Shown here in pieces: positions 1 to 50,540 of a stretch of 64,000 bases of DNA. The first letter of the stretch is position 1; every line of letters begins with the position of its first letter. The notes below the pieces were generated by a model. That model had not been told where the DNA came from. It saw nothing but the letters and a program-made list of their open reading frames with translations, and made no database searches. This DNA comes from Egibacteraceae bacterium (lineage in GTDB: Bacteria; Actinomycetota; Nitriliruptoria; Euzebyales; Egibacteraceae): the NCBI GenBank assembly GCA_030447925.1, contig JAUJNX010000007.1, positions 186,001 to 250,000 on the forward strand, given 5' to 3'. The position numbers and the translations under genes were made by a program.

Positions 1-373
1 CGTCGTTGAAGTCCCCGACGACCAGCCCGTCGACGAAGGCGCCGCCCAGGGTCCGCGCCCCGTCCCAGAACCCGCGGCCGTCCTCCGGCTCCGCGGCGGG
101 CGGGGCGGCCGGCGCCGGTTCGCCGCCCGGGGCCGGTTCGCCGTCGCCCGCGGCGCCGTCGCGGGCGGCCACGTCCTCCCCGCCGGCGGGCGCCGGGCCG
201 CAGCCGGGACCACCGGTGACGCGGCACAGCGCCGTCGTCGCCCCCGTCGTGATCGCGGCGCCGATGCCCGACGCCGCCACCGCGGCCACGACCAGCGCGA
301 TGACGAGGAGGAGCCCCACGTACTCCGCGGCGGTCTGGCCCTCCTCGGGGCGCAGGCGCCGGCAGCTTCGCAT
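1..373 (-). CDS. Flp-type prepilin-leader protein, C-terminus beyond window edge
   Basis: The start is ATG at 373 and the gene runs off the left edge, so about 124 codons are visible. The first 12 residues are basic or charged and end in Gly, followed by QTAAEY and about 20 hydrophobic residues. This is the class III (Flp/type IVb) prepilin signature, with Glu at mature position 5 and Tyr at 6. After the membrane helix come two cysteines about eight residues apart, then a Pro/Gly/Ala/Glu linker with repeated GEPAP, then a new globular start (GFWDGARTLGG). The same order (leader, helix, Cys pair, linker, large domain) occurs in the Rhs protein at 46410-50444, whereas the true pilin at 41850 stops soon after the helix. 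I infer a membrane-anchored or pilus-exported multidomain protein; the effector part is not visible. Confidence 0.75.
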   Translation of the reverse strand, partial: MRSCRRLRPEEGQTAAEYVGLLLVIALVVAAVAASGIGAAITTGATTALCRVTGGPGCGPAPAGGEDVAARDGAAGDGEPAPGGEPAPAAPPAAEPEDGRGFWDGARTLGGAFVDGLVVGDFND

Positions 374-1006: not shown

Positions 1007-1189
1007 ATGGATCCGATGACGCACCTCCTCCTCCACCGCCAGCGCGAGCACGAGGCGGCCGTCGCCGCCGAGCGCCACCGCCTCCTGCGCGCCGTTCGCC
1101 GCCGCCGGGGCGACGACCGCCTGCCCGACCCCCAGCCCACCGTGACCCCCGCTCCCCGGCGGCGCGTCGCGGGCGCACAATCGACGTGA
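1007..1189 (+). CDS. short basic protein upstream of the LAL regulator
   Basis: This is a 60-codon frame from ATG 1007 (an internal ATG at 1016 is equally possible). It encodes a His/Arg-rich peptide beginning MDPMTHLLLHRQREHEAA and rich in Arg in the middle. It resembles the many tiny basic actinobacterial proteins of unknown role that begin with a short helix and end in an Arg cluster. Its stop overlaps the ATG of the following regulator (TGATG), which would fit translational coupling. The evidence is only composition and overlap, so it may be spurious. Confidence 0.4.
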   Translation: MDPMTHLLLHRQREHEAAVAAERHRLLRAVRRRRGDDRLPDPQPTVTPAPRRRVAGAQST

Positions 1190-6029: not shown

Positions 6030-6672
6030 ATGAGCGTGGCGGTGGTGGATGCGGCCGCGACCGCGGCCGCGGTCCGGGCGTTCGCGGCGGGCCGCCGCGA
6101 CCAGCGCCAGGCGCTCACCCGCCTGGACGCCGCGATCGGCGACGGCGACCACGGCGACAACCTCAACCGGGGCCTCAAGGCCGCCCTGGACGCGCTGCCC
6201 GACCCGGAGGGGTCCACGCCCGGGGCGGTCCTCAAGGCCGTCGCGCAGGCGCTGATCACCAAGGTCGGGGGGCCGCCGGGCCCTGTACGGCACGGCGTTC
6301 CTGCGCGCCGCCACCGCGCTGGGCGACACCGCGGAGCTGGGACCCGACGACGTCGTGACCGCGCTGGCCGCCGCCCTTGGCGGGCTGCAGCAGCGCGGCA
6401 AGGCCGAGGTCGGGGACAAGACCATGATCGACGCCTGGGCGCCGGCGGTGGCGGCGGCCCGGGCGGCGGCCGAGGGAGGCGGGGACGTGACCGCGGTCCT
6501 CGCGGCCGCGGAGGGGGCCGCACGCGAGGGTGCGGCGTCGACGGTCCCGCTGGTGGCGCGCAAGGGCCGCGCGAGCTACCTGGGGGAGCGCAGCGCGGGG
6601 CACGCCGACCCGGGTGCGACGTCGAGCCACCTGCTGTTCAAGGCGCTGACCGACTGCACGATCCGAGACTGA
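6030..6672 (+). CDS. dhaL: dihydroxyacetone kinase ADP-binding subunit DhaL (frameshifted in this sequence)
   Basis: DhaL carries the ADP that passes phosphate from DhaM to DhaK-bound dihydroxyacetone. The Mg-binding aspartates are in IGDGDHGDN near residue 35, and the C-terminal frame contains [12 protein letters not shown] and ends [13 protein letters not shown]. The two halves lie in different frames. At 6270-6290 the expected GGASGPLYG-type motif can be restored by adding one G to a six-G run and one C to a three-C run, giving 214 residues, a normal DhaL length. Two homopolymer losses within 20 bases suggest sequencing error rather than decay. Start ATG 6030; the SD lies inside the dispersed repeat. 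Confidence 0.88.
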
Positions 6673-6683
6673 GGAGCCGAGAC

Positions 6684-8197
<1,514 letters not shown>

Positions 8198-33165: not shown

Positions 33166-34029
33166 GTGACGCGCATCATCGCCGTGGGGTACGCCGAGGA
33201 GGTGTGCATCCCCCGCCAGCCGCGCATGCACGCGTTCCCGCACGCGCTGGAGCGCGACGACCTGGAGCGGCTGGCGGACCTCGCAGCGGGCGATCTCGCC
33301 AACGACCGCGCCGTGGTCGCCATCTACCCGTCCTGGCTGCCGGAGAGCACGCTGCGGCGACTGCAGACGGTGCGGTCGCTCCTCGGCTCGCCCCGCTTCG
33401 CGCTGCACGCGTCCCACGCGCCGCCGGTCGCCGGGTCGGTGCTGTGCGCGCTGGCCGCCGCGGCGGCCGCGGAGCTCCGCGACGCGGGGCTCCTCTACGC
33501 CGGCCTGCCCGTGCTCGAGCGCCAGATCGCAGCCGTCGCCCAGCTCCCGTCGGTGACCCGGCTCCGCCACCCGACCCCGTCGCTGCTGCAGCACGTCACG
33601 TCCTGGTGGCCGCGGAGCAGCTTCGCGGTCAGCTTCTGGCCGCGGCCGCAGGTGGCGGCGTTCCGCCGCGGGCAGGCCGCGGTCGCCCTCCCCCGCGCGG
33701 AGGCCTGGGAGGGGCTCACGCTGGACACGGTCGCGGTCGCCCCGGTCCCGCCGAGCGGGGCGCCGGGCTCGTGGTTCGAGGAGACGGTCATCCCCGCGCT
33801 GGGCGCCTCCTACCTCCTGCCCCTGGACGTCCCCCCGCTGTCGGCGACGTACTGGTCGACGCCGGGGGTCGTGGAGGCGGCCGCCTACCCGTCGGACACG
33901 GCGCGGGTCGTCCGGCTGCTCTCGGGCGCCGTGCCGGCGCCCTGCCCGTTCTGCGGGGAGCGGGTGGCCTCGCAGCCCTGCCCGTTCTGCCACGCGGAGT
34001 CCCCGCCGCAGCTCGCGGGCGCGCGATGA
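33166..34029 (+). CDS. Tad-locus protein with C-terminal zinc ribbon
   Basis: The protein has 287 residues from GTG 33166; no better start is in frame nearby. The N-terminal body mixes alpha/beta segments with no recognised motif (AVGYAEEVCIPRQ, LASPRFALHASHAPP-like stretches, SWWPRSSFAVSFWP). The C-terminus has two CPFC pairs separated by ten residues (CPFCGERVASQPCPFC), a zinc ribbon. The stop overlaps the ATG of cpaB (GATGA), placing it first in the Tad operon. It may be a cytoplasmic accessory or regulatory protein of the pilus; that is inference from position. Confidence 0.7.
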   Translation: MTRIIAVGYAEEVCIPRQPRMHAFPHALERDDLERLADLAAGDLANDRAVVAIYPSWLPESTLRRLQTVRSLLGSPRFALHASHAPPVAGSVLCALAAAAAAELRDAGLLYAGLPVLERQIAAVAQLPSVTRLRHPTPSLLQHVTSWWPRSSFAVSFWPRPQVAAFRRGQAAVALPRAEAWEGLTLDTVAVAPVPPSGAPGSWFEETVIPALGASYLLPLDVPPLSATYWSTPGVVEAAAYPSDTARVVRLLSGAVPAPCPFCGERVASQPCPFCHAESPPQLAGAR

Positions 34030-34763
34030 ACCCCCGCCAGCGCCGCGGCCTGCTCCTCATCGTCCTGTCGGCGCTGGGGGCGAGCGCGGTGTTCGTGGCC
34101 GTCGTCAACTACGTGGGCGAGGTGAACCGGCGTGTCGGCCCGATGGTGCCGGTCGTGCGCCTCACCGCGGAGGCGCCGGCGTGGCAGGAGGTCACCGCGG
34201 ACATGGTCCAGGAGGTCGAGGTCCCCCAGCGGTGGGGACCGCCCAACGCCCTGCGCACCGCGGCGGACCTCCAGGGCAACGTGCCGACCGTCCCCCTGCC
34301 CGCGGGGACCGTCCTGCAGCAGGGGATGCTGGTGCCCGCCCCCGTGCTGCGCGACGGCGAGCGCGAGATCGCCATCCTGGTGGACGCCGAGACCGGGGTG
34401 GCCGGCAAGATCGGCAGCGGCAGCGTCGTCGACATCTACGCGACCTTCGACGCGGAGGTGGAGGGGCAGCCGGAGGCGGAGGTCGTCGTCCAGGACGCCG
34501 AGATCATCGAGGTCGGGACCCCCACGACGCTGCCTGACGAGAACGCCGACGGCGGGTTCGGGGAGGGCGAGTTCGTCCCCGTCACCTTCGCGCTGTCGGT
34601 GCAGGAGAGCCTCACGATCGCCTACGTCGAGAGCTTCGCCGCCAACGTCCGCCTCGCGCTGCGCGCCCCGACCGACGACCGGCCGCTGGGCGACGGCGAG
34701 CGGGTGTACCGCCGTCCGGGACCGCCGGCCCCCGCGGGCCCCGCGGCGGCCGCGGGGGGCTGA
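34026..34763 (+). CDS. cpaB: Flp pilus assembly protein CpaB/RcpC
   Basis: The protein has 245 residues from ATG 34026. One N-terminal membrane helix is followed by a SAF-type domain (QEVTADMVQEVEVPQRW, VPLPAGTVLQQGMLV) and an RcpC/CpaB C-terminal beta domain (REIAILVDAETGVAGKIGSGSVVDIYATF, VPVTFALSVQESLTIAYVES). CpaB is a periplasmic/cell-surface assembly component of Tad pili. A Pro/Ala-rich tail ends the protein. The next gene starts one base after its stop. Confidence 0.88.
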   Translation: MNPRQRRGLLLIVLSALGASAVFVAVVNYVGEVNRRVGPMVPVVRLTAEAPAWQEVTADMVQEVEVPQRWGPPNALRTAADLQGNVPTVPLPAGTVLQQGMLVPAPVLRDGEREIAILVDAETGVAGKIGSGSVVDIYATFDAEVEGQPEAEVVVQDAEIIEVGTPTTLPDENADGGFGEGEFVPVTFALSVQESLTIAYVESFAANVRLALRAPTDDRPLGDGERVYRRPGPPAPAGPAAAAGG

Positions 34764-34764
34764 C

Positions 34765-36366
34765 GTGGCCTACCGGGTGCTGCTCGGCGTCGCCGACCCC
34801 GGGGTCATCGACGACTTCCGCGCCCTGGCCCCCGAGACGGGTGAGATCGAGGTGGCCGGTGTGCTGCCCACGGCGGGCGAGGTCGTGGCGGCCCTGACGG
34901 CCGGGGCGGGCGAGGTCGACGTGGTCGTCCTGCACGAGGACCTCGGCCCGCTGCCGGTGCTGGACCTCGCCCGCAACCTCGGCGGGCGGGCCCCCGACAT
35001 CGGCCTGGTGCTCCTGGCCCGCGAGCACAGCCCCTCGCTGACCATGGCGGCCCTGCGCGCCGGCTTCCGCGGGATCGTCACCCTGCCGCTGTCCCTGGAG
35101 GACCTGCAGACCACCGTCACCGACGCGGGAGCCTGGGCGCAGAACCTGCGCGCCAAGTTCGAGCGCGGTGGCGACGACGCGATCAGCACCGCCGAGGGGC
35201 GGATGCTGGTCGTCGCGGGGGCCAAGGGCGGCGTCGGCACGACGACGGTGGCCGTCCACCTCGCCCTGGAGGTCGTCCGCTCCAGCCCCGACCGGTCGGT
35301 GTGCCTGGTCGACTTCGACCTGCAGAAGGGCGACGTCCGCAGCTACCTCGACCTCTCCCACCGCCGCAGCGTGGCGGACCTGGTCGACGTCGCCCACGAC
35401 CTCTCCGGCCGCCAGATCGACGACAGCCTGTCGATCCACGGCGGCCGGCTGCGGGTGCTGCTCCCCCCGGCGGAGGGCGAGTTCGCCGACGCCGTCGCCG
35501 GGGAGGCCGCGCGCCGGATCCTCGGCGGGGTCCGCGCGCGCTTCGACGTGGTGATCGTCGACGTCGGCGCGGTCGTGTCCGAGGGCGCCGCGGTGGCCAC
35601 CGAGATGGCCGACCAGGTGGTCATGGTGGTCACCCCCGACGTCCCCAGCCTGCGCGCCGCCAACCGGCTGCTCGGGCTGTGGGAGCGGCTGCAGATCCGC
35701 AAGGAGGGCGTGGGCGTCCTGGTCAACCGCGCCAGCCGGCGCAGCGAGATCCAGCCGGACCTGGTCGCCCGGGTGGTGTCGGCGACCCCCCTGAAGAGCT
35801 CGCTGCCCGCGGACTTCAAGTCCCTCGAGGCGGCCGGCAACACCGGCGTGCCGGAGCGGCTGGCCGACGGCAAGCTCCGGCGGGCGATCGAGCAGCTCGC
35901 CCGCGAGCTGCAGGTGGTGCCCAGCGCCGCCCGGCGCACCCGCCGTGGCCTGGCGGGCGACGACGGCCAGGTCGCCGCGGAGACCGCGGGGATGGTGTTC
36001 ACCATTGGCATCGTGCTGCTGGCCCTGTGGCAGCTGCTGCTGGCCGGCTACACCGTCGTGCTGGCCAACCACGCCGCACGCGAGGCCGCCCGCGAGCTGG
36101 CCGTCGCCGAGGTGGGCGACGACGGCCTGCCCGGCCGCCTGGAGGCGATCGCGCGGGCGGACCTGCCGCGCGGCTGGGACGTGCCCGGCGGGGTGGACGT
36201 CGAGGTCGGGCACGACCGCGTCGCCGTGACCCTGTCGGTGCCGGCGTTCCTCCCGTCGGTGACGTCGTCCCTGCGCCTGACCGGGGAGGCGGGGACCCTC
36301 CGCGAGCGGGCGCCCACGCGCCCGTCGGCGTCGCCCACGCCCTCGCCGTCCCCACCGGTGACCTGA
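34765..36366 (+). CDS. tadZ: TadZ/CpaE ATPase fused to a TadE-like pseudopilin
   Basis: The protein has 533 residues from GTG 34765. Residues 1-125 form a receiver-like domain (VLHEDLGPLPVLDLARN). Residues about 148-390 are a MinD/ParA-type ATPase with deviant Walker A (GAKGGVGTTTVAVHLA) and CLVDFDLQKGDV; TadZ normally positions the Tad machine at the cytoplasmic membrane face. In the same open frame, with no stop, the chain continues into GDDGQVAAETAGMVF, a long hydrophobic helix, and NHAAREAARELAV, which is a TadE pseudopilin. A prepilin-peptidase-type Gly-Gln site precedes the helix at about residue 401, so cleavage could release the two halves. Alternatively an internal GTG near 35911 starts a separate gene. 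Confidence 0.83.
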   Translation: MAYRVLLGVADPGVIDDFRALAPETGEIEVAGVLPTAGEVVAALTAGAGEVDVVVLHEDLGPLPVLDLARNLGGRAPDIGLVLLAREHSPSLTMAALRAGFRGIVTLPLSLEDLQTTVTDAGAWAQNLRAKFERGGDDAISTAEGRMLVVAGAKGGVGTTTVAVHLALEVVRSSPDRSVCLVDFDLQKGDVRSYLDLSHRRSVADLVDVAHDLSGRQIDDSLSIHGGRLRVLLPPAEGEFADAVAGEAARRILGGVRARFDVVIVDVGAVVSEGAAVATEMADQVVMVVTPDVPSLRAANRLLGLWERLQIRKEGVGVLVNRASRRSEIQPDLVARVVSATPLKSSLPADFKSLEAAGNTGVPERLADGKLRRAIEQLARELQVVPSAARRTRRGLAGDDGQVAAETAGMVFTIGIVLLALWQLLLAGYTVVLANHAAREAARELAVAEVGDDGLPGRLEAIARADLPRGWDVPGGVDVEVGHDRVAVTLSVPAFLPSVTSSLRLTGEAGTLRERAPTRPSASPTPSPSPPVT

Positions 36367-36749
36367 TGCGCCGCCGCCTGCGAGGGGAGCACGGGCAGAG
36401 CACCGTCGAGTTCGCCGCGATGCTGCCCTACCTGCTGCTCGCCGCCGCGCTCGCGTGGCAGCTGCTGCTCACCGCTGCGGTCGCCAACGCGCTGGAGAAC
36501 GCCGCCCGCACCGGCAGCCGCGCGCAGAGCGTGGACCTCGACGGCGAGCAGCGCGCGCTGGAGGCGCTGCCGCGCTGGCTGCGCGACCACGCCACCGCCG
36601 AGGTCGGCCCCGCACCCGGCTGCGACGACGACGGCGCGGACGGGGAGGGCGGCCGGGTGGCCGTCTGCGCCACCGTCCCGGTGCTGTGGCCGGGCCTGGC
36701 GGTCACGGGGGCGCAGCTGCGCCGCGACGCCGAGTTCCCGACCGGCTGA
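36366..36749 (+). CDS. tadE: TadE family pseudopilin
   Basis: The protein has 127 residues from ATG 36366, overlapping the preceding stop (TGATG). The N-terminus has a basic leader, GEHGQSTVEFA and a hydrophobic helix, then NALENAARTGSRA. This is TadE: processed by prepilin peptidase and needed for Flp pilus assembly, probably as a minor component. The C-terminal part has one Cys pair (CDDDG...VCATV). Length is typical. Confidence 0.85.
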   Translation: MRRRLRGEHGQSTVEFAAMLPYLLLAAALAWQLLLTAAVANALENAARTGSRAQSVDLDGEQRALEALPRWLRDHATAEVGPAPGCDDDGADGEGGRVAVCATVPVLWPGLAVTGAQLRRDAEFPTG

Positions 36750-36763
36750 GGGAGGCGGACCAC

Positions 36764-38095
36764 ATGGCCCTGCGCGACCGGCTCAGCGACCACCGCGCCG
36801 CCCGCCGGGGCGACCCGGGGGAGGACGGCCAGGTCGCCCGCTACCGCCGGACGCTGCTGGAGGAGGTCGACCTCGACGAGCTCAGCGCCCTCAGCGAGCA
36901 GCAGCGGCGGGCGCGCCTGGAGCGCATCGTCGGGCACCTGCTCAGCCGCGAGGGCCCGCTGCTGTCGACCCTCGAGCGCAGCACCCTGATCCGCCGGATC
37001 GTGGACGAGGCCCTGGGGCTGGGCGTCCTGGAGCCGCTGCTGGACGACGAGTCGGTGACCGAGATCATGGTCAACGGGCCCGCGGACATCTGGGTCGAGC
37101 GCGCCGGGCGCCTGGAGCGGGTCGACACCCGCTTCGAGAGCGAGGCCCAGCTCTACCAGACCATCGACCGGATCGTCGCGCAGGTGAACCGCCGGGTCGA
37201 CGAGGCCTCGCCCATGGTCGACGCGCGCCTGCCCACCGGCGAGCGCGTCAACATCATCGTCCCGCCGCTCGCCCTGTCGGGTCCCACCCTCACGATCCGC
37301 CGCTTCCCGCGCGCCTACTCGATGGACGAGCTGGTCGACCTCGGCAGCCTGGACGAGACCGCGCGCCAGCTGCTGGGCTCGTGCGTGCGCGCCCGCTGCA
37401 ACGTGATCGTGTCCGGCGGGACGGGCAGCGGGAAGACGACGTTCCTCAACGCCCTGTCGGGCTTCCTGCCGCAGGGCGAGCGGATCATCACCATCGAGGA
37501 CGCCGCGGAGCTGCAGCTCCAGCAGCCCCACGTCGTCTCCCTGGAAGCCCGGCCGCCCAACGTCGAGGGCAAGGGCCGCGTCACCATCCGCGACCTGGTG
37601 CGCAACAGCCTGCGCATGCGCCCGGACCGCATCATCGTCGGCGAGGTTCGCGGCGGTGAGACCCTCGACATGCTCCAGGCCATGAACACCGGCCACGAGG
37701 GCTCGCTGGCCACCGTCCACGCGAACTCGCCGGAGGACGCGATCGTCCGGCTCGAGACGCTGGCGTCGATGAGTGAGGTGGAGATCAGCTTCGAGGCCCT
37801 GCGCGACCAGGTGAACAGCGCGGTCGACGTGCTCGTGCACCTGAGCCGCTACCCCGACGGGTCGCGGCGGCTGGAGGAGCTGGCCGTCGTGGCGTCCCAG
37901 CGGCGGGAGCCGTTCCGCCTCGCGCCCGTCGTGGTGTTCGAGCCGGAGGGGCTGGGCCCGGACCGCGAGGTGAGCGGCACCTACCGCTACCTGCCGCTCC
38001 CGCCGGCGCTCGAGCAGCGGCTCCGGCGCCGCGGCGAGGTCGTGCCCCCCGCGTTCCGGACGCGGCCGGTGCAGGCGCTGGGGACCGGGGCGTGA
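36764..38095 (+). CDS. tadA: Tad secretion ATPase TadA/CpaF
   Basis: The protein has 443 residues from ATG 36764, eight bases after GGGAGG. It is a type II/IV secretion-superfamily hexameric ATPase. Walker A is [15 protein letters not shown], Walker B is [15 protein letters not shown], and the His box is [15 protein letters not shown]. The N-terminal segment includes [21 protein letters not shown], typical of CpaF. It powers assembly (and possibly retraction) of the Flp pilus at the inner membrane face. TadB and TadC genes follow with overlaps. Confidence 0.95.
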
Positions 38096-39021
38096 CCCCG
38101 CTCGCCGCGATCGCCCTGGGGATGCTGGGGACCGCCGCGGTCCTGCTCGCCGGGCTGTACCAGTTCCACCAGGGATGGGCGCAGCGCAACGAGGCCGCTC
38201 GCCGCAGCCGCCTGGAGGCCGGGGAGGCGGCGGACCGCCGGCTGCGCGCCGCGCTCGACGCGCGGCTGCGCACCACACCCGCCGGGCGCGCGCTGGACCG
38301 GCGGCTGGCGGCCGCGGGGGTGGACAGCGGGCCCGCCGCGTTCCTCGGGGGCACGGTCCTCGTGGTGCTGACCGCGTACCTGGCCGGCGCCCTGCTGTTC
38401 GGCGGGTGGCCCGGCCTCCTGATCGGGGTCCTGGCGGCGCTCGCCCCGCTGCGCTGGCTCGACGCGCGCCGCGCGCGGCGGACCGCGGAGTTCGTCGCCC
38501 AGCTCCCGGAGGCCGCCCGGGTCATGTCCAACGCCTCGTCGGCGGGCCTGTCGCTGCCCCGGGCCATCGAGATGGCGGCCGCCGAGGTGGGCGAGCCGAC
38601 GGGCGATGTCCTCCAGCGCGTGATCGACGAGCTCCGGCTGGGCCAGTCCGTCGAGCTCGCGCTGGAGAACCTCGCGCGCCGCGCGCCCAGCCGGGAGGTC
38701 GCCGTGCTCGTCGCCACCCTGGTGATCCAGCAGCGCGCGGGCGGGGACACCGTGCGGGCGCTGCGCGACATGGCCGAGACGCTGGAGTCGCGCAAGGACC
38801 TCCGCCGCGAGGTGCGCACCGTCATGGCCGGTTCCCTGGCGACCGGCTGGATCGTCGCCGCGCTGGGGCTGGTGTTCCTGCTGCTGGTGAACCTCCTCAG
38901 CCCCGGCGTCCTGCGCGAGATGGCCGCCGACCCCTTCGGCCAGCTCGCCCTGCTGGTCGGCGGGGGCCTCTACGCGCTCGGCTTCGTGCTCGTCCGGCGG
39001 GTCACGAGGGTCGAGACGTGA
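38092..39021 (+). CDS. tadB: Tad membrane platform protein TadB
   Basis: The protein has 309 residues from GTG 38092 (overlap with tadA stop). A T2SSF-type platform domain is visible: LPEAARVMSNASSAGLSLPRA, ALENLARRAPSREVAVLVATL and QRAGGDTVRALRDMAETL, with hydrophobic helices at the N-terminus, near residues 95-120, and two at the C-terminus. TadB and TadC form the inner-membrane base on which TadA acts. The stop overlaps tadC. Confidence 0.92.
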   Translation: MTPLAAIALGMLGTAAVLLAGLYQFHQGWAQRNEAARRSRLEAGEAADRRLRAALDARLRTTPAGRALDRRLAAAGVDSGPAAFLGGTVLVVLTAYLAGALLFGGWPGLLIGVLAALAPLRWLDARRARRTAEFVAQLPEAARVMSNASSAGLSLPRAIEMAAAEVGEPTGDVLQRVIDELRLGQSVELALENLARRAPSREVAVLVATLVIQQRAGGDTVRALRDMAETLESRKDLRREVRTVMAGSLATGWIVAALGLVFLLLVNLLSPGVLREMAADPFGQLALLVGGGLYALGFVLVRRVTRVET

Positions 39022-39911
39022 ACCCGGCCCTGCCCGCGTTCGCGCTGGTCCTCTGCCTCGCCGGCGCGTTCGCCGGGGTGGCGCTCGTCCGCACCCTGCC
39101 GCCCGGCACCCGCCGGCTGCTCGACGTGGACCCCGACGACGCCGCGCCGGGGCGCCGGGTGCTCGCGGTCGTGCGCGAGCGCATCGGCGCGCGCTTCGCC
39201 CCGGTCGTCCTCGGCATCACCGGACCCCGCCGCGCCGCGCTCATCCAGCACCGGCTCGACGCCGCGGGCCGGCCCGGCGGGCTGACGCTGGAGGGCTGGG
39301 CGGGGGTCAAGGCGTCGGCGACCGCCCTGTCCGCGCTGGCCGGGCTCGCCGTCACCCTCCTGACCGGCAACCCCATCTGGGTCCTCGCCCTCGCGGCCGT
39401 GGGCTGGCTGCAGGTCGACCTCTCCCTCGCCCGCGAGGCGCGCCGCCGCCAGGCCCGCATCGACCGCGACCTGCCGGACTTCCTCGACGTGCTGACGGTG
39501 ACGGTGGGCGCCGGCCTCGGCTTCCGCACGGCGCTGGACCGCGTGGCCGAGGCGCTCGGCGGCCCGCTGGGGGAGGAGTTCCGCATCGCGCTGCGCCAGA
39601 TGGGCTACGGCGAGGGCCGCCGCGGCGCGCTCGAGGGCGTCCGCGACCGCAACGACTCCGAGGCGCTGCGGGAGTTCATCACCGCGCTCCTCCAGGCCGA
39701 GGAGCTCGGCGCCCCGCTGGGCGCGACGCTCAGCGACATCGCCCGCGACATGCGCAAGGCGTTCCAGCAGCGCGCCCGCCGCGACGCCGCCCGCGCGGCG
39801 CCGCGGGTGAGCCTGATCGTCTCGACCGTCGTGGTCCCGGGGGTCATCGTCTTCGTGCTGTCCGCGCTGATCATCGGCACCGACTTCGACCTGGGGGTCT
39901 TCGGTGGCTGA
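39018..39911 (+). CDS. tadC: Tad membrane platform protein TadC
   Basis: The protein has 297 residues from GTG 39018. It is a second T2SSF-type protein with DLPDFLDVLTVTVGAGLGFRTALDRV, ALLQAEELGAPLGATLSDIA and RKAFQQRARRDAARAAPRVS, plus a C-terminal helix. It partners TadB. It overlaps the sensor kinase gene by eight bases, so the regulatory pair is transcribed with the pilus machine. Confidence 0.92.
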   Translation: MNPALPAFALVLCLAGAFAGVALVRTLPPGTRRLLDVDPDDAAPGRRVLAVVRERIGARFAPVVLGITGPRRAALIQHRLDAAGRPGGLTLEGWAGVKASATALSALAGLAVTLLTGNPIWVLALAAVGWLQVDLSLAREARRRQARIDRDLPDFLDVLTVTVGAGLGFRTALDRVAEALGGPLGEEFRIALRQMGYGEGRRGALEGVRDRNDSEALREFITALLQAEELGAPLGATLSDIARDMRKAFQQRARRDAARAAPRVSLIVSTVVVPGVIVFVLSALIIGTDFDLGVFGG

Positions 39912-41094
39912 GCCGGCGCCGCACCGGGTCCTGGCGGACCTGGGCCGCCTGGTCCTGGACTTCCGGCTCATCGCCCTGTTCCTGTCCATCCTCTGGCTGC
40001 CCTCCGGCGGCAGCATCGACGCCTGGGGCCTCGTCACGGTCCTGGTCGCCCTGGCGGCGAGCTTCGTCCCGCTGATCGCCTGGAACCGGATCGCCCCGTT
40101 CCTCATGCGCCACCCCGGCGTGCTCGCGGTCGACCTGTGCCTGACCCTGGTGATCCTGCTGTTCACCGGGACCGAGGGGCCCTTCCTCTCCTACACCCTG
40201 GGGACCGCCTTCCTCGCCGGGCTCCTCTACGGCTGGGTCGGTGCGGGCCTGTTCTCCGGGCTCCTCGTCGGCGGGTACCTGGGGGTCCTCTACCTGCGCG
40301 CACCCGTCGCCGGGATCGCCGACTCCTTCGAGACCTGGGTGGGGGTCCCGTCGCGGTACGTCCTGTTCGCGGTCGGGGCCGCCGCCGTCCGTGACCTGGT
40401 CATCCGCCAGCGGCGCGCCGAGGCGGAGCTGCACCAGGCCGTGCGTGCCGCGGCGGGCGACGCCGAGCGCGCCCGGCTCGCGCGCGAGATGCACGACACG
40501 CTGGGCAAGAGCCTGCACGGCATCGCCCTGGCCGCCGCCGCCCTGGCCCGCTGGGTCCGGGCCGACCCCGCCCGCGCGGAGCGCCAGGCGCAGTCCCTGG
40601 CGGTCTCCGCCGCCACCGCGGCGGCGGAGGCGCGGGAGCTGATCGGCGACCTGCGCAGCGACCGGCTCGAGCAGCCGCTGCACGAGGCCCTCCGCGGCTT
40701 CATCGCCGAGTGGTCCGCGCAGACGGGGATCCCCGTGGAGGCCGACCTCGACCCCGGGGTCGTCATGGAGGTCGAGGCCCGCTACGAGCTGTTCTGCGTG
40801 GTCAAGGAGGCGCTGCGCAACGTCGAGCGGCACGCGCAGGCCGGCCGCGTCCGGGTCCGGCTCCAGCGGGACGACGGGGACATCGTCCTCGCCGTCGCCG
40901 ACGACGGCCGCGGGCTGCCCGGTCCGGTCGACCTCGAGGCGCTGGGCGCGGGCGGCCACTACGGGCTGCTGGGCATCCGCGAGCGCGCGGCGCGGCTGGG
41001 CGGTGCCCTCGAGGTCGTGCCCGGCGTGCCCCGCGGCGTGGAGCTGCGCGTGGTGGTCGCCGGCGCCCGCAGGCCGGCGGAGGTGCGGTCGTGA
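39904..41094 (+). CDS. NarL-type sensor histidine kinase
   Basis: The protein has 396 residues from GTG 39904. About five to six membrane helices (residues 15-150) form the sensor. The HisKA_3 dimerisation region is RLAREMHDTLGKSLHGIALA, with the phospho-acceptor His near 197. The ATPase domain contains KEALRNVERHAQAG (N box), VADDGRGLPG (G1) and GHYGLLGIRERAARLGG (G2). Its partner is the response regulator directly downstream (GTGA overlap). Inclusion in the Tad operon suggests it controls pilus production from a membrane or envelope signal. Confidence 0.9.
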   Translation: MAEPAPHRVLADLGRLVLDFRLIALFLSILWLPSGGSIDAWGLVTVLVALAASFVPLIAWNRIAPFLMRHPGVLAVDLCLTLVILLFTGTEGPFLSYTLGTAFLAGLLYGWVGAGLFSGLLVGGYLGVLYLRAPVAGIADSFETWVGVPSRYVLFAVGAAAVRDLVIRQRRAEAELHQAVRAAAGDAERARLAREMHDTLGKSLHGIALAAAALARWVRADPARAERQAQSLAVSAATAAAEARELIGDLRSDRLEQPLHEALRGFIAEWSAQTGIPVEADLDPGVVMEVEARYELFCVVKEALRNVERHAQAGRVRVRLQRDDGDIVLAVADDGRGLPGPVDLEALGAGGHYGLLGIRERAARLGGALEVVPGVPRGVELRVVVAGARRPAEVRS

Positions 41095-41744
41095 CGACGG
41101 TCCTCATCGCCGACGACAACCCCGTCATCCGGGGCGGGCTGGTGAGCCTGCTCGAGGTCGAGGGCGACCTGGAGGTCGTCGGCCAGGCATCGACCGGCAC
41201 CGAGGCCGTGCGCCTCGCCCACGCGACCCACCCGGACGTGGTGCTGCTCGACGTGCGCATGCCCGGGATGGACGGGCTCGCCGCCGCCCGCGAGATCCGC
41301 AAGGTCGCGCCGATCCTGATGCTCACCTACTCCGAGGACCCCGACGTCGTCACCCAGGCGATCCGCGCGGGCGCGTCCGGCTACCTGGTGCACGGCCGCT
41401 TCACCACCGACGAGCTGGTCGGGGCGGTCCGCGAGGTGGCCTCGGGGGGCAGCACCCTCTCCCCGGCGGTGACGGCGACGGTCCTTGACGCCCTGCGCGT
41501 CGCCCCGGCCTCGGCGCCCACCCCGCCGGTGGCCTACCAGGCCGGCCTGACCGACCGCGAGCGCCAGATCATGACCCTGCTGGTGCAGGGCCGGTCCAAC
41601 ACCGACATCGCGGAGGCGCTGTTCCTGTCGGCCAAGACCATCAAGAACCACATCAACCGCCTCTACGCCAAGCTCGGCGTGACCAACCGCGCCGAGGCGA
41701 TGGCGGTGTGGCTCGGCACCGCGGCCCCGCCGGGCCACCTGTAG
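41091..41744 (+). CDS. NarL/LuxR-type response regulator
   Basis: The protein has 217 residues from GTG 41091. The receiver domain has the acidic pair (IADDNPVIRGG) and phospho-accepting Asp in VLLDVRMPGMDG. The position after GASGYLV, normally Lys, is His (GYLVHGRFTTDEL), which is unusual and could alter phosphorylation switching. The C-terminal HTH is LTDRERQIMTLLVQGRSN to AKTIKNHINRLYAKLGV. It is likely to control the Tad/Flp genes: the flp pilin gene starts 105 bases downstream behind its own leader. Confidence 0.88.
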   Translation: MTTVLIADDNPVIRGGLVSLLEVEGDLEVVGQASTGTEAVRLAHATHPDVVLLDVRMPGMDGLAAAREIRKVAPILMLTYSEDPDVVTQAIRAGASGYLVHGRFTTDELVGAVREVASGGSTLSPAVTATVLDALRVAPASAPTPPVAYQAGLTDRERQIMTLLVQGRSNTDIAEALFLSAKTIKNHINRLYAKLGVTNRAEAMAVWLGTAAPPGHL

Positions 41745-41849: not shown

Positions 41850-42077
41850 ATGCTCTACCTGCTGGCCCTCACCACCCTGCTGACCCGCACCACCGACCGC
41901 ATCCGCACCCGCCTCGCCGACGACCACGGCCAGACCGCCGCCGAGTACATGGGCATCATCGTGGTCGTGGCCATCATCCTCGCTGCCATCACTGCATCGG
42001 GCATCGGGGAGCAGATCAGTGGTTACGTCGGGAACGCGATCGACGACGTCTTCAACAACGCCGGCGGAGAGGGCTGA
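41850..42077 (+). CDS. flp: Flp family type IVb pilin
   Basis: The protein has 75 residues from ATG 41850, with GGGAGG seven bases upstream. A 27-residue leader ending ADDHG is followed by QTAAEYMGIIVVVAIILAA. Cleavage after Gly27 leaves a 48-residue pilin with Glu5 and Tyr6, the Flp hallmark. This is the likely major subunit of the pilus assembled by the Tad proteins upstream. The very strong ribosome site and separate 105-base leader fit high expression. The two larger Flp-leader proteins (left edge and 46410-50444) share this motif. Confidence 0.93.
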   Translation: MLYLLALTTLLTRTTDRIRTRLADDHGQTAAEYMGIIVVVAIILAAITASGIGEQISGYVGNAIDDVFNNAGGEG

Positions 42078-42122: not shown

Positions 42123-43391
42123 TCATACCGTGCGCCCGACGGGCGCGGGCCCTCCCCCGGGGACGCAAGGCGGCTGGAGGAGCGCTACGCCCTCCCCGTA
42201 GCGCTGACGGTAGCGTTCCTCCGCTTGCCGCAGCTCCTCTCGGAGGACGTCGACTTGCTCGGAGCGCAACGCGAGTAGGTCGTCCTGCCGTTGCAGATTG
42301 AAGGCCATGATGCGATCGGTCAGGTCAGAGACAGCTTGTCGCTCATCGCGGTTCTCATCTCGGTATTCCTGTAGCCACAGCTGAGCATCGACAGCCTGGC
42401 TCCGCACGCAGTTACCTGTCCTGGCCGTGTTACCCTGGATGCACACGATTGCGCTGAACAGCTCGCCTTGGCGTGCGATCAGTTCCTGGAAGTAGCTACG
42501 GAGTTGGTCGCCCGTGCTGGCGGTGGTGTAGGTGCCGCCGCTGGCTTCGGCGATCTGGCGCAGTGCAGCTTCTTCGGTGGTGTTGGCGATGTCGAAGCCG
42601 ACGACGTCGACGCGGATGGCGACGCCGGACTCCGCCAGGCGGCGGGCGGCGGCGACGGGGTCGCCGTCGCAGGTCTCCAGGCCGTCGGTGATGAGGATGA
42701 CGCGGTTGGCCTGTCCCTCGCGGCCGGCGAACTCCTGCCCGGCGCGGTCCAGTGCGCCCGCGATGGGGGTCCAGCCGGCGGGCTGGAGCTGGGCGAGGGT
42801 GGGGGTGACGTTGTCGGCGTTGAGCTGGCCCAGTGGCGCGAAGGTATCGATGCCGGCGCACGACTCGGGCCGTCCGGCGTCGGTGTTGTCGCCGCGGTGG
42901 CCGAACACGGTCAGCCCGACGGCGAAGCTGGCGGGGGTTGCGGTGACGTAGCGTTCCAGCGCGTCGCGGGCGGCCTCGATCTTGGTCCTGCCGGTGCCGT
43001 CGTCGCCGGCCATGGAGCCCGAGGAGTCCAGCACCAGCAGCGTGTTCTGCTGGGTGGTGACCGGGGTGCCGGGCAGGCCGGCGACCTCGGGGCAGCCCTC
43101 CAGGGCGCAGTCGTCGATCAGCGGGTCATAGCCCAGCTCGGTCTCCAGGAAGTCGGGGATGACGTTGCCGTCGCTGTCCTGGGAGAACCGCGCCGGCAGC
43201 GCCGGTGTCGGGCTGGGCACCGGCCGCGGCGACCGCGACGGCGACGGGGCGGGAGTCGGCGCCTCGGATTCGATCACCTCGGACGCAGGCGGCGACGGCG
43301 CGGCCGTGTCCTGGTCCCCGTCGCCGGTGCAGCCCACCACCACCAGCACCAGCACCACGCCCACCGCGCCTCGCCGCACCCCAACCCCCAC
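42123..43391 (-). CDS. VWA-domain lipoprotein (VWA-1)
   Basis: The protein has 422 residues from GTG 43391. A signal peptide ends in a lipobox (VVVGC, Cys near 21), then comes a Thr/Pro/Ser linker. A short Ca-binding-like motif QDSDGNVIPDFLETELG follows, with two Cys further on. The von Willebrand A domain has a complete MIDAS start (LVLDSSGSM), a DTFAPLG loop and RVILITDGLETC. The C-terminal helical domain has a Cys pair and long coiled-coil-like Gln/Glu/Arg helices; its DNA (42123-42540) is clearly lower in GC. It is a surface-anchored adhesin- or chaperone-like protein next to the pilin. A paralogue lies at 50541-51719. Confidence 0.83.
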   Translation of the reverse strand: MGVGVRRGAVGVVLVLVVVGCTGDGDQDTAAPSPPASEVIESEAPTPAPSPSRSPRPVPSPTPALPARFSQDSDGNVIPDFLETELGYDPLIDDCALEGCPEVAGLPGTPVTTQQNTLLVLDSSGSMAGDDGTGRTKIEAARDALERYVTATPASFAVGLTVFGHRGDNTDAGRPESCAGIDTFAPLGQLNADNVTPTLAQLQPAGWTPIAGALDRAGQEFAGREGQANRVILITDGLETCDGDPVAAARRLAESGVAIRVDVVGFDIANTTEEAALRQIAEASGGTYTTASTGDQLRSYFQELIARQGELFSAIVCIQGNTARTGNCVRSQAVDAQLWLQEYRDENRDERQAVSDLTDRIMAFNLQRQDDLLALRSEQVDVLREELRQAEERYRQRYGEGVALLQPPCVPGGGPAPVGRTV

Positions 43392-45919: not shown

Positions 45920-46413
45920 TTCTCGCTCAGGCGGGCCAGGACGGTCTGGGTGACTCCCGACACGATCACGTCCGATCGCTGCACGCCTTCTTGCACGTAC
46001 CGCCACAACTCCGCCCTCGGAACCCACGACCACTGCTCATGCAGGTCGACCGACGCGCCACTGTCGTCCACGAGCGTCAAGTGGTACGAGGCTGTCTGCG
46101 CCCGGTACCCCTCCGGCAGGATGCGTACGTCGGAAAGCCGGTTGAGGTTCACGCGGTCCTCGCCGAGGACCCGCACAACAAGGTCGCCGTTCTCGAGCAC
46201 GAACGCGCGCACGCGCCTGATGATGAACAGCACGACGGAAGCGACGACAAGGAGGATGATTCCACCCCATACGAACTCGTCCTCGTCGCCCGGTGCCGCG
46301 AAGCCCGTCCGGCCAACCACCAAGCTCAGGACACCTATCAGGGCGGGCAACGCTGGCCAGATGAGTGCGGACGGCCCCAGCTTCGCCTCCAGCACCGGAT
46401 GGTCGTTGTTCAC
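45916..46413 (-). CDS. two-helix/PH-like membrane protein, candidate immunity protein 1
   Basis: The protein has 165 residues from GTG 46413, which overlaps the Rhs stop codon (GTGA), so translation is coupled to the Rhs gene. Helices LIWPALPALIGVLSLVV and GIILLVVASVVLFIIR are followed by FVLENGDLVVRVLGEDRVNLNRLSDVRILPEG, LTLVDDSGASVDLHEQW and a final helix LWRYVQEGVQRSDV. Rhs toxins are normally followed immediately by their immunity gene; a membrane protein would fit a membrane-acting toxin tip. It is less GC-rich than flanks. Family unnamed as far as I know. Confidence 0.74.
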   Translation of the reverse strand: MNNDHPVLEAKLGPSALIWPALPALIGVLSLVVGRTGFAAPGDEDEFVWGGIILLVVASVVLFIIRRVRAFVLENGDLVVRVLGEDRVNLNRLSDVRILPEGYRAQTASYHLTLVDDSGASVDLHEQWSWVPRAELWRYVQEGVQRSDVIVSGVTQTVLARLSEK

Positions 46414-49400
46414 TTGATGGTGCCCGAAGTCACGGGATTCGTCTCGTCGAACAGCGCGTTCGTGAGTGCACCGGCAATGGTCCCACGGGTGACTCCGATA
46501 TAACTCTCGACCCCGACGACGGCCCGCTCTGACATTCCTGGTGCGACCTCCCGTCCACCGATCACCATCGGTGCCCTCACCGCGTTCCCTACCCATGTGC
46601 CGAATGCGCCCAGTGCGCCGGCCGTGACGATCTTCGTGAGCCCTTCCCCAGGGTTCCACGGCTCTCGGTCGATACCCCACTCGACCACCTGGCCGACGGC
46701 GTTGCTGGCCGCGGCGATCCCGGCACCCTGTGCCACTGTGACCGCTCCGGCTCCGAACACACCGAAGCTACCGATCGCCGCTCCCACCAACGCCCCCTCG
46801 GTCACCGCACCCGCGAACCCACCCCATGTCGGTTCTTCGCCCGTCATCGCCTGACTGCCGAGGTACGCGATGGCGTTGATCCCCGCGCCCAACGCGGCTC
46901 CGCCAAGGATGGTGGCGCACCAGGGGCAGGCGCCGGTGGGGTCGGTGTGGGTGGTGGGGTTGTTGAAGGCGTAGGCGTAGGTGCTGGTGTAGGGGAGGGT
47001 GGTGGGGTGGGCGGCGGGGTCGACCTGGTGGAACTGGCCCAGGGACGGGTTGTAGCGGCGCAGGCGCAGGTCGTACTGGCCGGTGGTGGGGTCCTGGTGC
47101 TCGCCGGTGAAGCGCAGGGAGGGGTCGGGGGTGCCGGGTGCCAGTTCCTCGGCGGCGCGGGTCTCGCCGAAGGGGGTGTAGGCGAAGCTGCGGGCCAGGT
47201 CGCCGCCGGGGCCGGAGACCGCCAGCGTGCTGCGCAGCGCGTCGGTGTGAAGGTAGCCGGTGGCCCCGCCCTGACGGGTGGCGACCGTGCCCAGGCCGAG
47301 GTCCAGGACGTGTGACCGGCGCGTGCCGTCCGGGCGGTCCTCGGTGGCCAGGCGGGGGAGGGGCGCGTTGGGGTCCCACTGGTAGCTGGTGACCCCGTCC
47401 GCGAACTCCGCCGACGTCAGCGTGCCTCGGCCGTCGTAGGCGTAGTCGACGGTGGCGCCGGCGGTCGTCACGCTGGTGAGCCGGCGCGACAGGTCGTAGG
47501 TGTAGGTGCGGGCGCCATCGGTGAGCAGGTTGCCGGCCTCGTCGTAGCGGTACTCCGCCGTGCCCCCGGGACCCGCGGTGGCGAGCAACCGGTCGTCCAG
47601 GTCGTACCGGTAGGTGGTCGTGCCGTCCGGTCCCTGCTCGCGCAAGCGGCGGCCCGCCTCGTCGTAGGCCCACGCGTGCCGCTCCGTGCCGCCGCCCGCG
47701 GCGGTGCGGACCGCCTGGGTCAGCCGGTCGAGCTCGTCGTACCGGTAGCGGGTCGTCTCGCCCCCGCGGCGCTCGACGAGGGGCTTGCCGACCGGGTCGC
47801 GCTCGTACGCCACCTCCGCGACGGGCCCGACCGGGCCGCCCGTGGCGATCCTGGTGACCCGCCCGGCCGCGTCGTGGTCGGTCCGGGTGACGGTGCCGTT
47901 GCCCTGCACGGCCTCCTGCAGCAGGCCCGCGGGGTCGTAGCGGTAGGCGGCGCTGACCGGACCGCTGGTCAGCTCGGCGAGGCGGCCGTCCGCGTCGTAG
48001 GCGTACCGCGTGGTGCCGGCGCCGGGGACGGTGCGCTCGACCAGCCTGCTCGAGCGGTCGTAGGCGTAGGTGAAGGTGGGGCGGTCGCGGGCGACCTCGA
48101 CCAGCCGGTCCAGGTCGTCCCAGCTGTAGGTCTCGGTGCCCAGCGCGTCGGTCATCGCCGTCACGCGGCCGGCCGCGTCGTAGGCCAGGCCGACGTCGGG
48201 GGTGGCGTCGGCGAAGTCGATGCGGGTCGTGCGCCCGCGCTCGTCGTGGTCCAGCTCGATCCGGGCCGGCCTGCCGTCCACCGTCCGCGGGTCGACGACG
48301 GCGGCCAGGGCGCCGTTCCGGTCCCACTCGTAGGACCACCGCCGGCCCTCCGGGGTGACCACCTCCGCCAGCCGGTTGGCGCCGTCGTAGCCGTAGCGGG
48401 TGACCGCGCCGTTGGCCGCGGTGCGCGCCACCAGGTTGCCCGCGGGGTCGTAGGCGTAGCGGGTTCTGGTCCCGTCGGGCGCCACCACGGCGGTGAGCCG
48501 GCCCATCACGTCGTGCTCGTAGCGGGTGCCCCGCCCGGCCGCGTCGACCTGCTCTACCAGGCGGCCCGGCGCGTCGTAGCGCGACCGCGTCGCCGCGCCG
48601 AGCGGGTCGACGACCTCGGTCACCCTGCCCGCCGGGTCGTGGGCGAACCGGGTGGTGAACGCGTCGCGCGCGGCGCCCGGGGCCGTGCCCCTGGGGTCGA
48701 CGACCGCGACGAGGTTGCCCGCGTCGTCGTACCGGCGCTGCGTGGTCGCGCCGCCGGGCGTCGTCGCCGAGACCAGGCGACCGGCGGCGTCGTAGCCGAG
48801 GCGGGTCGTGCGCCCCTCGGCATCGGTGACGGCGGTCGGCCGCCCCGGCGGCCCGTCGTAGGCGAGGCGGGTGGTGCTGTCCTCCGGCGCGTCGACCCGC
48901 AGCAGGTTGCCCGCGGCGTCGTAGGTCATGGTCACCCGCCGGCCGAGGGCGTCGACGTGCTCGATCGGCCGGTCCAGCGCGTCGTAGCGGAACCGGTCGG
49001 TGGGCTCCTGCCCGCCGGGCGGCGTCACCGCCAGCAGGTTGCCGCGGGCGTCGTGGTCCAGGCGCGTCACGCCACCGTTCGCGTCGGTCACCGACACGAC
49101 CTGGAGCTGCTCGTCGTAGCCGTACGTGACGGTGCTGCCGTGGGGGTCGATGCGGCGGACCAGCGCGCCCTCGCGGTACACGTCGGTCCACGCCGATCCG
49201 CGGGCGTCGAACATCGTGGCGGTCAGGGTGCCGCGCACCTCGTCGGTGACGAAGCGGGTGCGGCCCCCCAGCCCGTCGACCTGCTCCACGACGCGGCCGC
49301 GCCGGTCGTAGCGGTTGGCGACCACGACCTCGCCCTCGGCATCGCGCAGCTCCGCCAGCCGGCCGGCGCGGTCGTAGCGGTAGGCGACCTCGTCCCCCGC

Positions 49401-50444
49401 GGGACCGGTGACCTTGGCGAGCAGGCCGTCGCGGTAGGCGTAGCGGACGGCCCGGCCGTCGGGGACGCGGACCTCGACCAGGCGGTCGCCGTCGTAGGTG
49501 AAGACGGCCTCGCGGCCCGTGGGGTCGGTGACGCCCGCCAGGCGCCCGCCGTCGTAGCGCAGCGCGAGCGCCGTGCCCGTGGGCTCGGTCACGCGCAGGA
49601 GTCGGCCCCCGCGGTCGAAGGCGAGCACGGCGCCGCCGCGGCGGCGCAGCTCGTACCCGCCGTCGGCGGCCCGCAGCTCCGACCGGACCCCCGCGTCGGC
49701 CCGGAACGCCTCGCCGTCGCGGACCCAGCCGTACCGCCGGCCGCCCTCGGTCACCAGGACCGCCCGGTCGCCGTCGACCTCCAGGCGCATGGCGTAGGCG
49801 TGGGTCCAGCCCCGGCCCAGCGGGCCCTCGTGCTCGTCGTCGGAGCTGTAGGAGCGGGCGAGCGCGAAGGCGGGGCTGAGGCCCGGCAGGGCCAGGTCCG
49901 TAGCCGAGGACACGAACGCCCCGGTGTAGGAGTTGACCGGGTCGCTCTGCTCGCCGGTGGGGTCGACCCCGTCGGCGTCGGGTCCCGTGCCCGGGCCGGT
50001 CGACCGGTCGTCGGGGGCGCCGGGGCCGGGCGGGTCGACCGTGCCCTCGACGAGGTCCTCGTCCACCGACCCGTCCGCGTCGCGGCCCTCGCTGGCCGGT
50101 CCGCCGCCGGCCGGTCCGCCGCCGCCCTCGCCGCCTTCGCCCCCTCCGCCGCCCGGACCGCCGGGTCCCTGAGGGTCCCCGCCGTCCCCGCCGTCCCCGC
50201 CCGGTCCCCGGGGGTCGGCACCGGTGCCGTCCGCGCCGGGCCCTCCCGCCACGTCGGCGGGGCAGTCCGTCCCGCCCCCCGCCCGGCAGTACGCCGAGCG
50301 CAGGCCCGCGGTCAGGGTCGCGCCCACCTGGGACGACGACGCCACCACCGCGGTGACGATCACCACGACGACCACCAGGACGCCGAGGTACTCGGCGCTG
50401 GTCTGACCGGCCTCCCGGCGCACCGCGCGGTGCAGTCTGGACAT
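46410..50444 (-). CDS. Rhs/YD-repeat protein with Flp-type prepilin leader and variable C-terminal tip
   Basis: The protein has 1344 residues from ATG 50444. Residues 1-13 (ending REAG) precede QTSAEYLGVLVVVVVIV, a class III prepilin leader and helix. Then come Cys residues (YCRAGGGTDC), a Gly/Pro/Asp-rich linker to about residue 165, a DUF6531-like start (DPVNSYTGAF), and over 30 YD repeats (RYDxxGRL type) to about 1165. The Rhs-associated core ends YNPSLGQFHQVDP...DPTGACPW. The last ~173 residues are hydrophobic, Gly/Ala-rich with repeated helical segments, and the DNA there drops in GC. YD repeats form a cocoon around the toxin tip; here export would depend on a pilin-type signal, unlike known T6SS, TcC or Sec-linked Rhs proteins. 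Confidence 0.9.
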   Translation of the reverse strand: MSRLHRAVRREAGQTSAEYLGVLVVVVVIVTAVVASSSQVGATLTAGLRSAYCRAGGGTDCPADVAGGPGADGTGADPRGPGGDGGDGGDPQGPGGPGGGGGEGGEGGGGPAGGGPASEGRDADGSVDEDLVEGTVDPPGPGAPDDRSTGPGTGPDADGVDPTGEQSDPVNSYTGAFVSSATDLALPGLSPAFALARSYSSDDEHEGPLGRGWTHAYAMRLEVDGDRAVLVTEGGRRYGWVRDGEAFRADAGVRSELRAADGGYELRRRGGAVLAFDRGGRLLRVTEPTGTALALRYDGGRLAGVTDPTGREAVFTYDGDRLVEVRVPDGRAVRYAYRDGLLAKVTGPAGDEVAYRYDRAGRLAELRDAEGEVVVANRYDRRGRVVEQVDGLGGRTRFVTDEVRGTLTATMFDARGSAWTDVYREGALVRRIDPHGSTVTYGYDEQLQVVSVTDANGGVTRLDHDARGNLLAVTPPGGQEPTDRFRYDALDRPIEHVDALGRRVTMTYDAAGNLLRVDAPEDSTTRLAYDGPPGRPTAVTDAEGRTTRLGYDAAGRLVSATTPGGATTQRRYDDAGNLVAVVDPRGTAPGAARDAFTTRFAHDPAGRVTEVVDPLGAATRSRYDAPGRLVEQVDAAGRGTRYEHDVMGRLTAVVAPDGTRTRYAYDPAGNLVARTAANGAVTRYGYDGANRLAEVVTPEGRRWSYEWDRNGALAAVVDPRTVDGRPARIELDHDERGRTTRIDFADATPDVGLAYDAAGRVTAMTDALGTETYSWDDLDRLVEVARDRPTFTYAYDRSSRLVERTVPGAGTTRYAYDADGRLAELTSGPVSAAYRYDPAGLLQEAVQGNGTVTRTDHDAAGRVTRIATGGPVGPVAEVAYERDPVGKPLVERRGGETTRYRYDELDRLTQAVRTAAGGGTERHAWAYDEAGRRLREQGPDGTTTYRYDLDDRLLATAGPGGTAEYRYDEAGNLLTDGARTYTYDLSRRLTSVTTAGATVDYAYDGRGTLTSAEFADGVTSYQWDPNAPLPRLATEDRPDGTRRSHVLDLGLGTVATRQGGATGYLHTDALRSTLAVSGPGGDLARSFAYTPFGETRAAEELAPGTPDPSLRFTGEHQDPTTGQYDLRLRRYNPSLGQFHQVDPAAHPTTLPYTSTYAYAFNNPTTHTDPTGACPWCATILGGAALGAGINAIAYLGSQAMTGEEPTWGGFAGAVTEGALVGAAIGSFGVFGAGAVTVAQGAGIAAASNAVGQVVEWGIDREPWNPGEGLTKIVTAGALGAFGTWVGNAVRAPMVIGGREVAPGMSERAVVGVESYIGVTRGTIAGALTNALFDETNPVTSGTIK

Positions 50445-50540
50445 GTGGTCAGTCTCTGGTTCCCGCGGGATGCGTACCAGGGTCCAGAGACCCACGCGGG
50501 GTGACCCGCTGGGCCCCCGCTCGTCCGGACGGCCGGTCCC

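Follow-up and report, generated by a model that had tools for sequence, protein, structure and literature searches.

The window analysed here is a 64,000-nt stretch of an Egibacteraceae genome (contig C5, 186001-250000), and its left edge cuts through a gene on the minus strand. The sequence beyond the edge was read from L009 (contig C5, 172001-190000), where position 1 of the window is position 14001. The genes around the edge are the following.

Window 1..373, minus strand: N-terminal 124 codons of a Flp-leader toxin gene, with leader, helix, Cys pair, linker and the start of the pre-toxin region
L009 13990-12887, minus strand: P0001, with the pre-toxin region and, by Pfam, PT-HINT (residues 118-240) and Ntox24 (residues 290-356)
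L009 12890-12423, minus strand: P0002, candidate immunity gene (155 aa) whose start shares 4 nt with the toxin stop

The prepilin leader at the window edge

The edge fragment starts with an ATG at window position 373 of the minus strand and its reading frame is open through the left edge. The protein begins with MRSCRRLRPEEGQTAAEYVGLLLVIALVVAAVAASGIGAAITTGATTALCRVTGGPGCGP, later followed by GEPAPGGEPAPAAPP and GFWDGARTLGG. Behind its class III (Flp) prepilin leader, G|QTAAEY, come a hydrophobic helix and the Cys pair CRVTGGPGC; a Gly/Pro/Glu linker then leads to a pre-toxin region starting with GFWDGARTLGGAFVDGLVVGDF. Flp/Tad prepilin leaders are recognized by a Gly at the cleavage site, Glu at +5, an aromatic residue at +6 and a hydrophobic helix. 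GQTAAEY shows this pattern, and a leader HMM trained without any sequence from this genome matched the edge frame with an E-value of 4.6e-14 among 932 six-frame ORFs. The other matches were the Rhs protein (5.8e-15), a true Flp pilin (2.9e-15), the L009 copy of the edge gene and, weakly, a TadE-like frame (4.3e-4). A motif search allowing two mismatches found three leader copies in the 64 kb against 0.14 expected, and this excess together with the HMM excludes a chance motif. The leader, helix, Cys pair and start of a new region at GFWDGARTLGG, which the sequence-only reading had picked out, were thus confirmed in the sequence, the leader also by the HMM.

A structural Flp pilin is a short protein of about 50-80 aa without further domains. 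The edge protein departs from this pattern in that a HINT and a toxin domain follow the helix and a Cys pair is present, which is absent from the true pilins found in this analysis. A PADLOC search for a defence gene gave no match.

The continuation of the gene: HINT, Ntox24 and a frame break

Extending the contig leftward identified the edge fragment as the start of a polymorphic toxin composed of a Flp-type prepilin leader, Cys pair, linker, pre-toxin region, PT-HINT (PF07591) and Ntox24 (PF15529), so the multidomain effector with a toxin domain that had been predicted from the fragment was indeed found. In P0001, PT-HINT scored 50.5 bits (cut-off 27.7, E 3.4e-13) and Ntox24, which gives the protein a C-terminal toxin of a known family, 38.9 bits (cut-off 24, E 1.1e-9). 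The HINT part ends in VLTHNQ with a terminal HN, and a Cys directly precedes the SF block; we take these to be the motifs of a PT-HINT releasing protease. Ntox24 is a predicted metal-independent RNase (Zhang et al., 2012, PMC3482391, in the available text). Neither toxin piece has a Pfam match to a PAAR/VgrG or WXG/LXG N-terminal domain, and a T6SS- or T7SS-type toxin was ruled out on this ground.

The leader frame stops 250 codons from its start, about 380 nt past the window edge, and the pre-toxin/HINT/Ntox24 continuation sits in a second frame offset by -1, with the break placed between L009 13972 and about 14010, at the window edge. L112, an intact 465-aa ORF from a genome of the same order, matches the edge fragment over its residues 8-117 and P0001 over its residues 128-357; the C-termini behind HINT differ between P0001 and L112. 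Since both pieces match this one ORF in order, the break can be narrowed to some 40 nt at the edge of the window. The sequence-only reading had named a gene that ends shortly beyond the edge as its refutation. Taken literally, the leader frame does stop there, but the homologous continuation lies in the other frame and forms one ORF with the leader part in the relative. The 250-aa length of the leader frame would suit a long pilin or a TadE/TadG-like minor pilin with the HINT-toxin ORF as an unrelated neighbour; however, the homology to a single intact ORF spans both pieces in order, and no family matches the out-of-frame tail behind the leader. We regard this explanation as very improbable, and a long pilin only is contradicted by L112.

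In the same contig stretch, DhaL and glycerol kinase are each divided over two frames, within the Dak2 and the FGGY_N domain respectively, and a nearby LysR gene has its substrate domain in frame at its start only. Because these metabolic genes are split likewise, sequencing error is the likely cause of the toxin frame break, which we therefore read as a likely assembly indel, a real mutation being the possible alternative. Genes that are split or contain in-frame stops lie at window 1184-4154 and 6030-8197 and at L009 10678-11563 (AAA/LuxR regulator, DhaL, glycerol kinase, LysR).

If the edge copy were a decayed pseudogene, its leader and toxin pieces would no longer form one protein, as their different frames might suggest. 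Against this, the breaks in DhaL, glycerol kinase and apparently LysR point to assembly indels, the toxin frame is free of stops, the toxin end has kept its overlap with the immunity gene and the relatives are intact, so decay appears improbable. Programmed frameshifting that joins leader to toxin and limits toxin output would agree with two overlapping open frames and a -1-type offset at the junction, but the arrangement is not conserved, the relatives being single ORFs, and the metabolic genes show similar breaks. We give this explanation very little weight.

P0002, a candidate immunity gene

The GTG start of P0002 shares four bases with the toxin stop. An overlapping downstream gene, which had been predicted as an immunity gene, is thus present directly behind the toxin. 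Searches of Pfam and NCBIfam gave no significant match for P0002, and its assignment to a named immunity family was dropped for this reason. In three of the five loci examined, a homologue of P0002 immediately follows an Ntox24 toxin. In Streptomyces sp. NRRL WC-3618 a homologue (36% over 140 aa) follows an Ntox24 homologue, whose N-terminus of more than 2,300 residues has no Flp leader match. A plasmid search gave matches in seven records, four of which were examined for an upstream toxin. The S. chartreusis plasmid has an Ntox24 toxin immediately upstream of the P0002 homologue, and the toxin before the homologue on the Nostoc edaphicum plasmid is annotated 'polymorphic toxin type 24'; the homologue on the Chelatococcus plasmid has no Ntox24 toxin, and none is annotated beside that of S. 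clavuligerus. A toxin-immunity cassette under differing N-termini is a hallmark of polymorphic toxins. The overlap and the position of homologues behind Ntox24 in three of five loci make P0002 very probably the cognate immunity gene of the Ntox24 toxin.

The Rhs protein, a structural pilin and a Tad operon in the same window

A third leader copy, in a 75-aa pilin, and a Tad operon lie in the same window as the two effector genes; the sequence-only reading mentioned neither. The features are listed below.

Window about 34027-34762, plus strand: CpaB/RcpC-like frame, by reading, with no family match
Window within 34027..36366, behind the CpaB/RcpC-like frame, plus strand: CpaE/TadZ-like AAA_31 ATPase with, by reading, a TadE-like tail
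Window 35301..36749, plus strand: ORF frame with a TadE domain (PF07811, residues 365-407, near 36390)
Window 36455..38095, plus strand: TadA-type ATPase frame (T2SSE PF00437, E 9.5e-71)
Window 38092..39021, plus strand: TadB-type membrane protein (T2SSF PF00482)
Window 38175..39911, plus strand: frame holding a TadC-type protein (DUF5936 PF19359 and T2SSF)
Window 39904..41744, plus strand: a histidine kinase and a response regulator of the LuxR type, with the Tad operon on one side and the pilin gene on the other
Window 41850..42077, plus strand: true Flp-type pilin, 75 aa, with leader GQTAAEYMGI, no Cys pair and a weak DUF4244 match
Window 46410..50495, minus strand: second leader-bearing effector, the Rhs protein, with leader GQTSAEYLGV, Cys pair YCRAGGGTDC, DUF6531, RHS repeats and RHS core

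The edge protein had been said to repeat the architecture of the Rhs protein 46 kb away. Leader and Cys pair are indeed common to both, but the Rhs linker is Gly/Asp-rich and not of the GEPAP type, and 46 kb is the distance to the end of the Rhs gene, the two starts lying about 50 kb apart. The C-terminal module of the Rhs protein has no assigned family. Near the end of its gene, 43667-44773 (plus), 45374-46033 (minus) and 45916-46680 (minus) encode apparently membrane-anchored proteins with similar soluble parts, of which the last two have no Pfam match; all three are possible immunity genes for the Rhs C-terminus. A lipoprotein-like protein with a vWA domain (42123-43391, minus) adjoins the pilin gene, and its homologues occur in L090, L091, L111, L114 and L116, all of which also have leader proteins. 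The 50541-51719 (minus) protein beside the Rhs gene resembles the vWA protein and has a similar DSDGNxxPDFxExELGxDPLxDDC stretch.

The histidine kinase and LuxR-type protein may possibly have a regulatory role. The genome encodes one prepilin peptidase over the cut-off, on contig C15. The edge toxin gene is 41.7 kb from the pilin gene and therefore stands outside the Tad operon itself.

Flp-type leaders in front of toxin and hydrolase domains in other genomes

A search model built from 14 leaders was applied at a threshold of 1e-3. At this threshold, and with pilins included, 154 of 396 genomes of the phylum had a match; in the class, 19 of 60 genomes did. The stretches around the stronger long ORFs gave a sample of 44 leader proteins of at least 180 aa, the edge protein included, and 30 of the 43 foreign ones were scanned for domains. 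RHS, HINT, nuclease, protease or Abhydrolase_8 domains were found in 16 of these 30. PT-HINT occurred in three, with a WHH nuclease, with RNAse_A_bac and with a C-terminus lacking a family; the nucleases further comprised Tox-REase-5 (two proteins) and a DNA/RNA non-specific endonuclease (one), the proteases were of the calpain type (two) and the thermolysin type M4 (one), and Abhydrolase_8 and RHS modules were present in four and three proteins, respectively. The supposed family of pilin-leader effectors is therefore borne out by leader proteins with toxin or hydrolase domains in other genomes. Three of the 30 had TSP3 repeats alone and 11 had no Pfam domain, so the long leader proteins cannot all be taken for toxins.

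Proteins sharing the pre-toxin/HINT part differ in their C-termini, which are Ntox24, RNAse_A_bac and, in one case, weakly EndoU-like (E 0.019, below the cut-off); the WHH nuclease stands behind a less similar leader-HINT part. Relatives thus combine the same N-terminus with exchanged toxin domains, as polymorphic toxins do.

Of the 44 long leader proteins, 16 with a length of about 350-530 aa, often with a Cys-containing motif at the end, are homologous and form one group.

Members of the group: L090, L096, L100, L103, L105, L109, L110, L111
Members, continued: L114, L116, L118, L120, L121, L122, L125, L127

The six members that were scanned (L090 minus strand, L096 minus strand 10111-11487, L100, L103, L109 and L120) had no Pfam match. 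Part of the group adjoins a pilin gene. Rather than toxins, these proteins may have a structural role, possibly as a conserved Tad companion or a pilus-tip protein.

A plasmid search with a Tox-REase-5 leader protein gave no match. With P0001 it gave 132 records, none reaching 80% query coverage, and among the 15 matches listed 13 were annotated as HINT or RHS and two had no annotation. A genome scan for relatives, with an ORF in 75 of 77 loci, returned mostly long RHS-type HINT proteins with no visible Flp leader. When 14 of the 75 ORFs were inspected by eye, a G-x4-E-Y leader was seen in five (L131, L137, L141, L145, L192) and a degenerate leader in two (L151, L152). The last two, HINT toxins of Actinomadura, have a pilin-like helix and a Cys pair, the conserved Glu of the Flp motif being replaced by Ser or Asn.

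The Cys pair in the long leader proteins

The Cys pair was defined as C-x(3-18)-C in a 47-aa window just behind the pilin helix. It is present in 40 of the 44 long leader proteins and in one of the 16 short ones, the latter reading as TadE-like, while 2.5% of other 47-aa windows in the same long proteins hold such a pair. The long proteins are partly related, so the 44 are not independent events; the pair is common to most payload families found among the scanned long leader proteins. Of the seven further HINT toxins, four have it (L141, L151, L152, L192) and the other three (L131, L137, L145) lack it, and the rule is therefore weaker outside the 40-of-44 sample. It offers a simple signature for finding more members.

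Association with Tad genes

TadC (PF19359) was over the cut-off in eight of the 60 class genomes, and leader proteins with open frames of at least 300 also occurred in eight. TadC was present in seven of the eight genomes with long leader proteins versus one of the 52 without (hypergeometric P 1.6e-7, a value that ignores kinship), and in the eighth long-leader genome (G023) TadB and TadC were found by tblastn. A pilin gene lies within 10 kb of 14 of 33 long leader genes, and 19 are beyond 10 kb of a listed pilin; this count rests on 71 listed leader matches, mostly the stronger ones, and excludes two of 35 long genes whose genomes have no listed pilin. Part of the association may arise because Flp-type leaders are found mainly where Tad is present.

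The main rival to Tad export takes the Flp-like leader for a mere membrane anchor or Sec-type signal, with surface display, or release after HINT cleavage, and no part for Tad. Ordinary Sec-dependent export is listed as common for HINT toxins (PMC3482391, in the available text), for more than half of the long leader genes no listed pilin gene lies within 10 kb, and the two Actinomadura toxins with similar helices lack the conserved Glu. However, a plain anchor needs no G-x4-E motif, which is present in all 44 long as well as all 16 short leader proteins, and it leaves the co-occurrence with Tad and the proximity to pilin genes unaccounted for. We consider it unlikely, though the least unlikely of the alternatives. 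From the genomic association, we infer export through Tad as the best reading for the leader toxins.

Proposed mechanism

Taken as a whole, the edge protein is best explained, with a probability that we put at roughly 0.7, as an antibacterial polymorphic toxin whose trafficking module is a Flp-pilin-type N-terminus. The leader, HINT, Ntox24, immunity pairing, wider leader class and Tad association are apparent from sequence; we infer that a peptidase cleaves the protein and that Tad exports it, as well as its delivery, catalysis and target. The hydrophobic leader would enter the membrane in a prepilin-like N-in/C-out orientation, and the prepilin peptidase of the genome would cut G|QTAAEY after the Gly. 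The Tad machine encoded in the same window (TadA/B/C) might then treat the mature protein as an oversized pilin, so that the toxin would be exported or mounted on the pilus; the Cys-pair hairpin behind the pilin helix could tell effectors from structural pilins. HINT would cleave after its terminal Asn in or at a neighbouring cell and free Ntox24, the predicted RNase payload that needs no metal, while the producer would be protected by the immunity protein from the overlapping gene P0002.

A wider proposal is more tentative, and we hold it at somewhat less than even odds: actinobacterial Tad systems may be toxin-delivery machines in which a module of about 55 residues, a pilin helix plus a Cys hairpin, distinct from structural pilins, routes unrelated toxins, proteases and RHS cages through the prepilin peptidase and on or through the Tad pilus. 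Polymorphic toxins are classed by their route out of the cell. If the proposal is true, a recurrent Flp-pilin N-terminus before RHS cages, nucleases, proteases and hydrolases, found in Tad-bearing genomes, would add a further trafficking and secretion route to them, and actinobacterial pili would gain a weapon function.

Comparison with known systems

The edge toxin shares with the polymorphic toxin systems of PMC3482391 an N-terminal trafficking part, a HINT releasing protease, an exchangeable C-terminal toxin and an adjacent immunity gene. It differs in its Flp/Tad-type trafficking module, the words 'pilin', 'Flp' and 'TadE' being absent from the available text of that paper. The immunity partners of Ntox24 listed there are Imm50 and Imm53, whereas P0002 has no significant match to a Pfam family.

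In the open-access literature, which leaves most subscription papers outside the search, no description of a Flp-leader toxin class was found apart from PMC12605009 (J Biol Chem, 2025), where Flp pilins are named among the elements attached to ARC (CD38-fold) toxin domains. In its available text this is one passing phrase about one toxin fold, with no account of a leader class, of a Cys pair, of a link to Tad or of the range of payloads. PilB of Streptococcus sanguinis (PMC8179133, available text) likewise joins a pilin module to an added functional module, but it serves adhesion, is not a toxin with an immunity gene and belongs to another type IV pilus subclass.

The Kil/Tad pilus of Myxococcus is a Tad-type machine needed for contact-dependent killing, and large minor pilins with extra C-terminal domains stand at its tip (PMC8460266, PMC12075869). 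The available text of these papers names no recognised toxin domain at the Kil tips, whereas the actinobacterial Flp leaders covalently carry recognisable ones. The leader toxins bear on the question raised for Myxococcus, namely which toxin the contact-killing Tad-type system uses (PMC12075869, PMC8460266).
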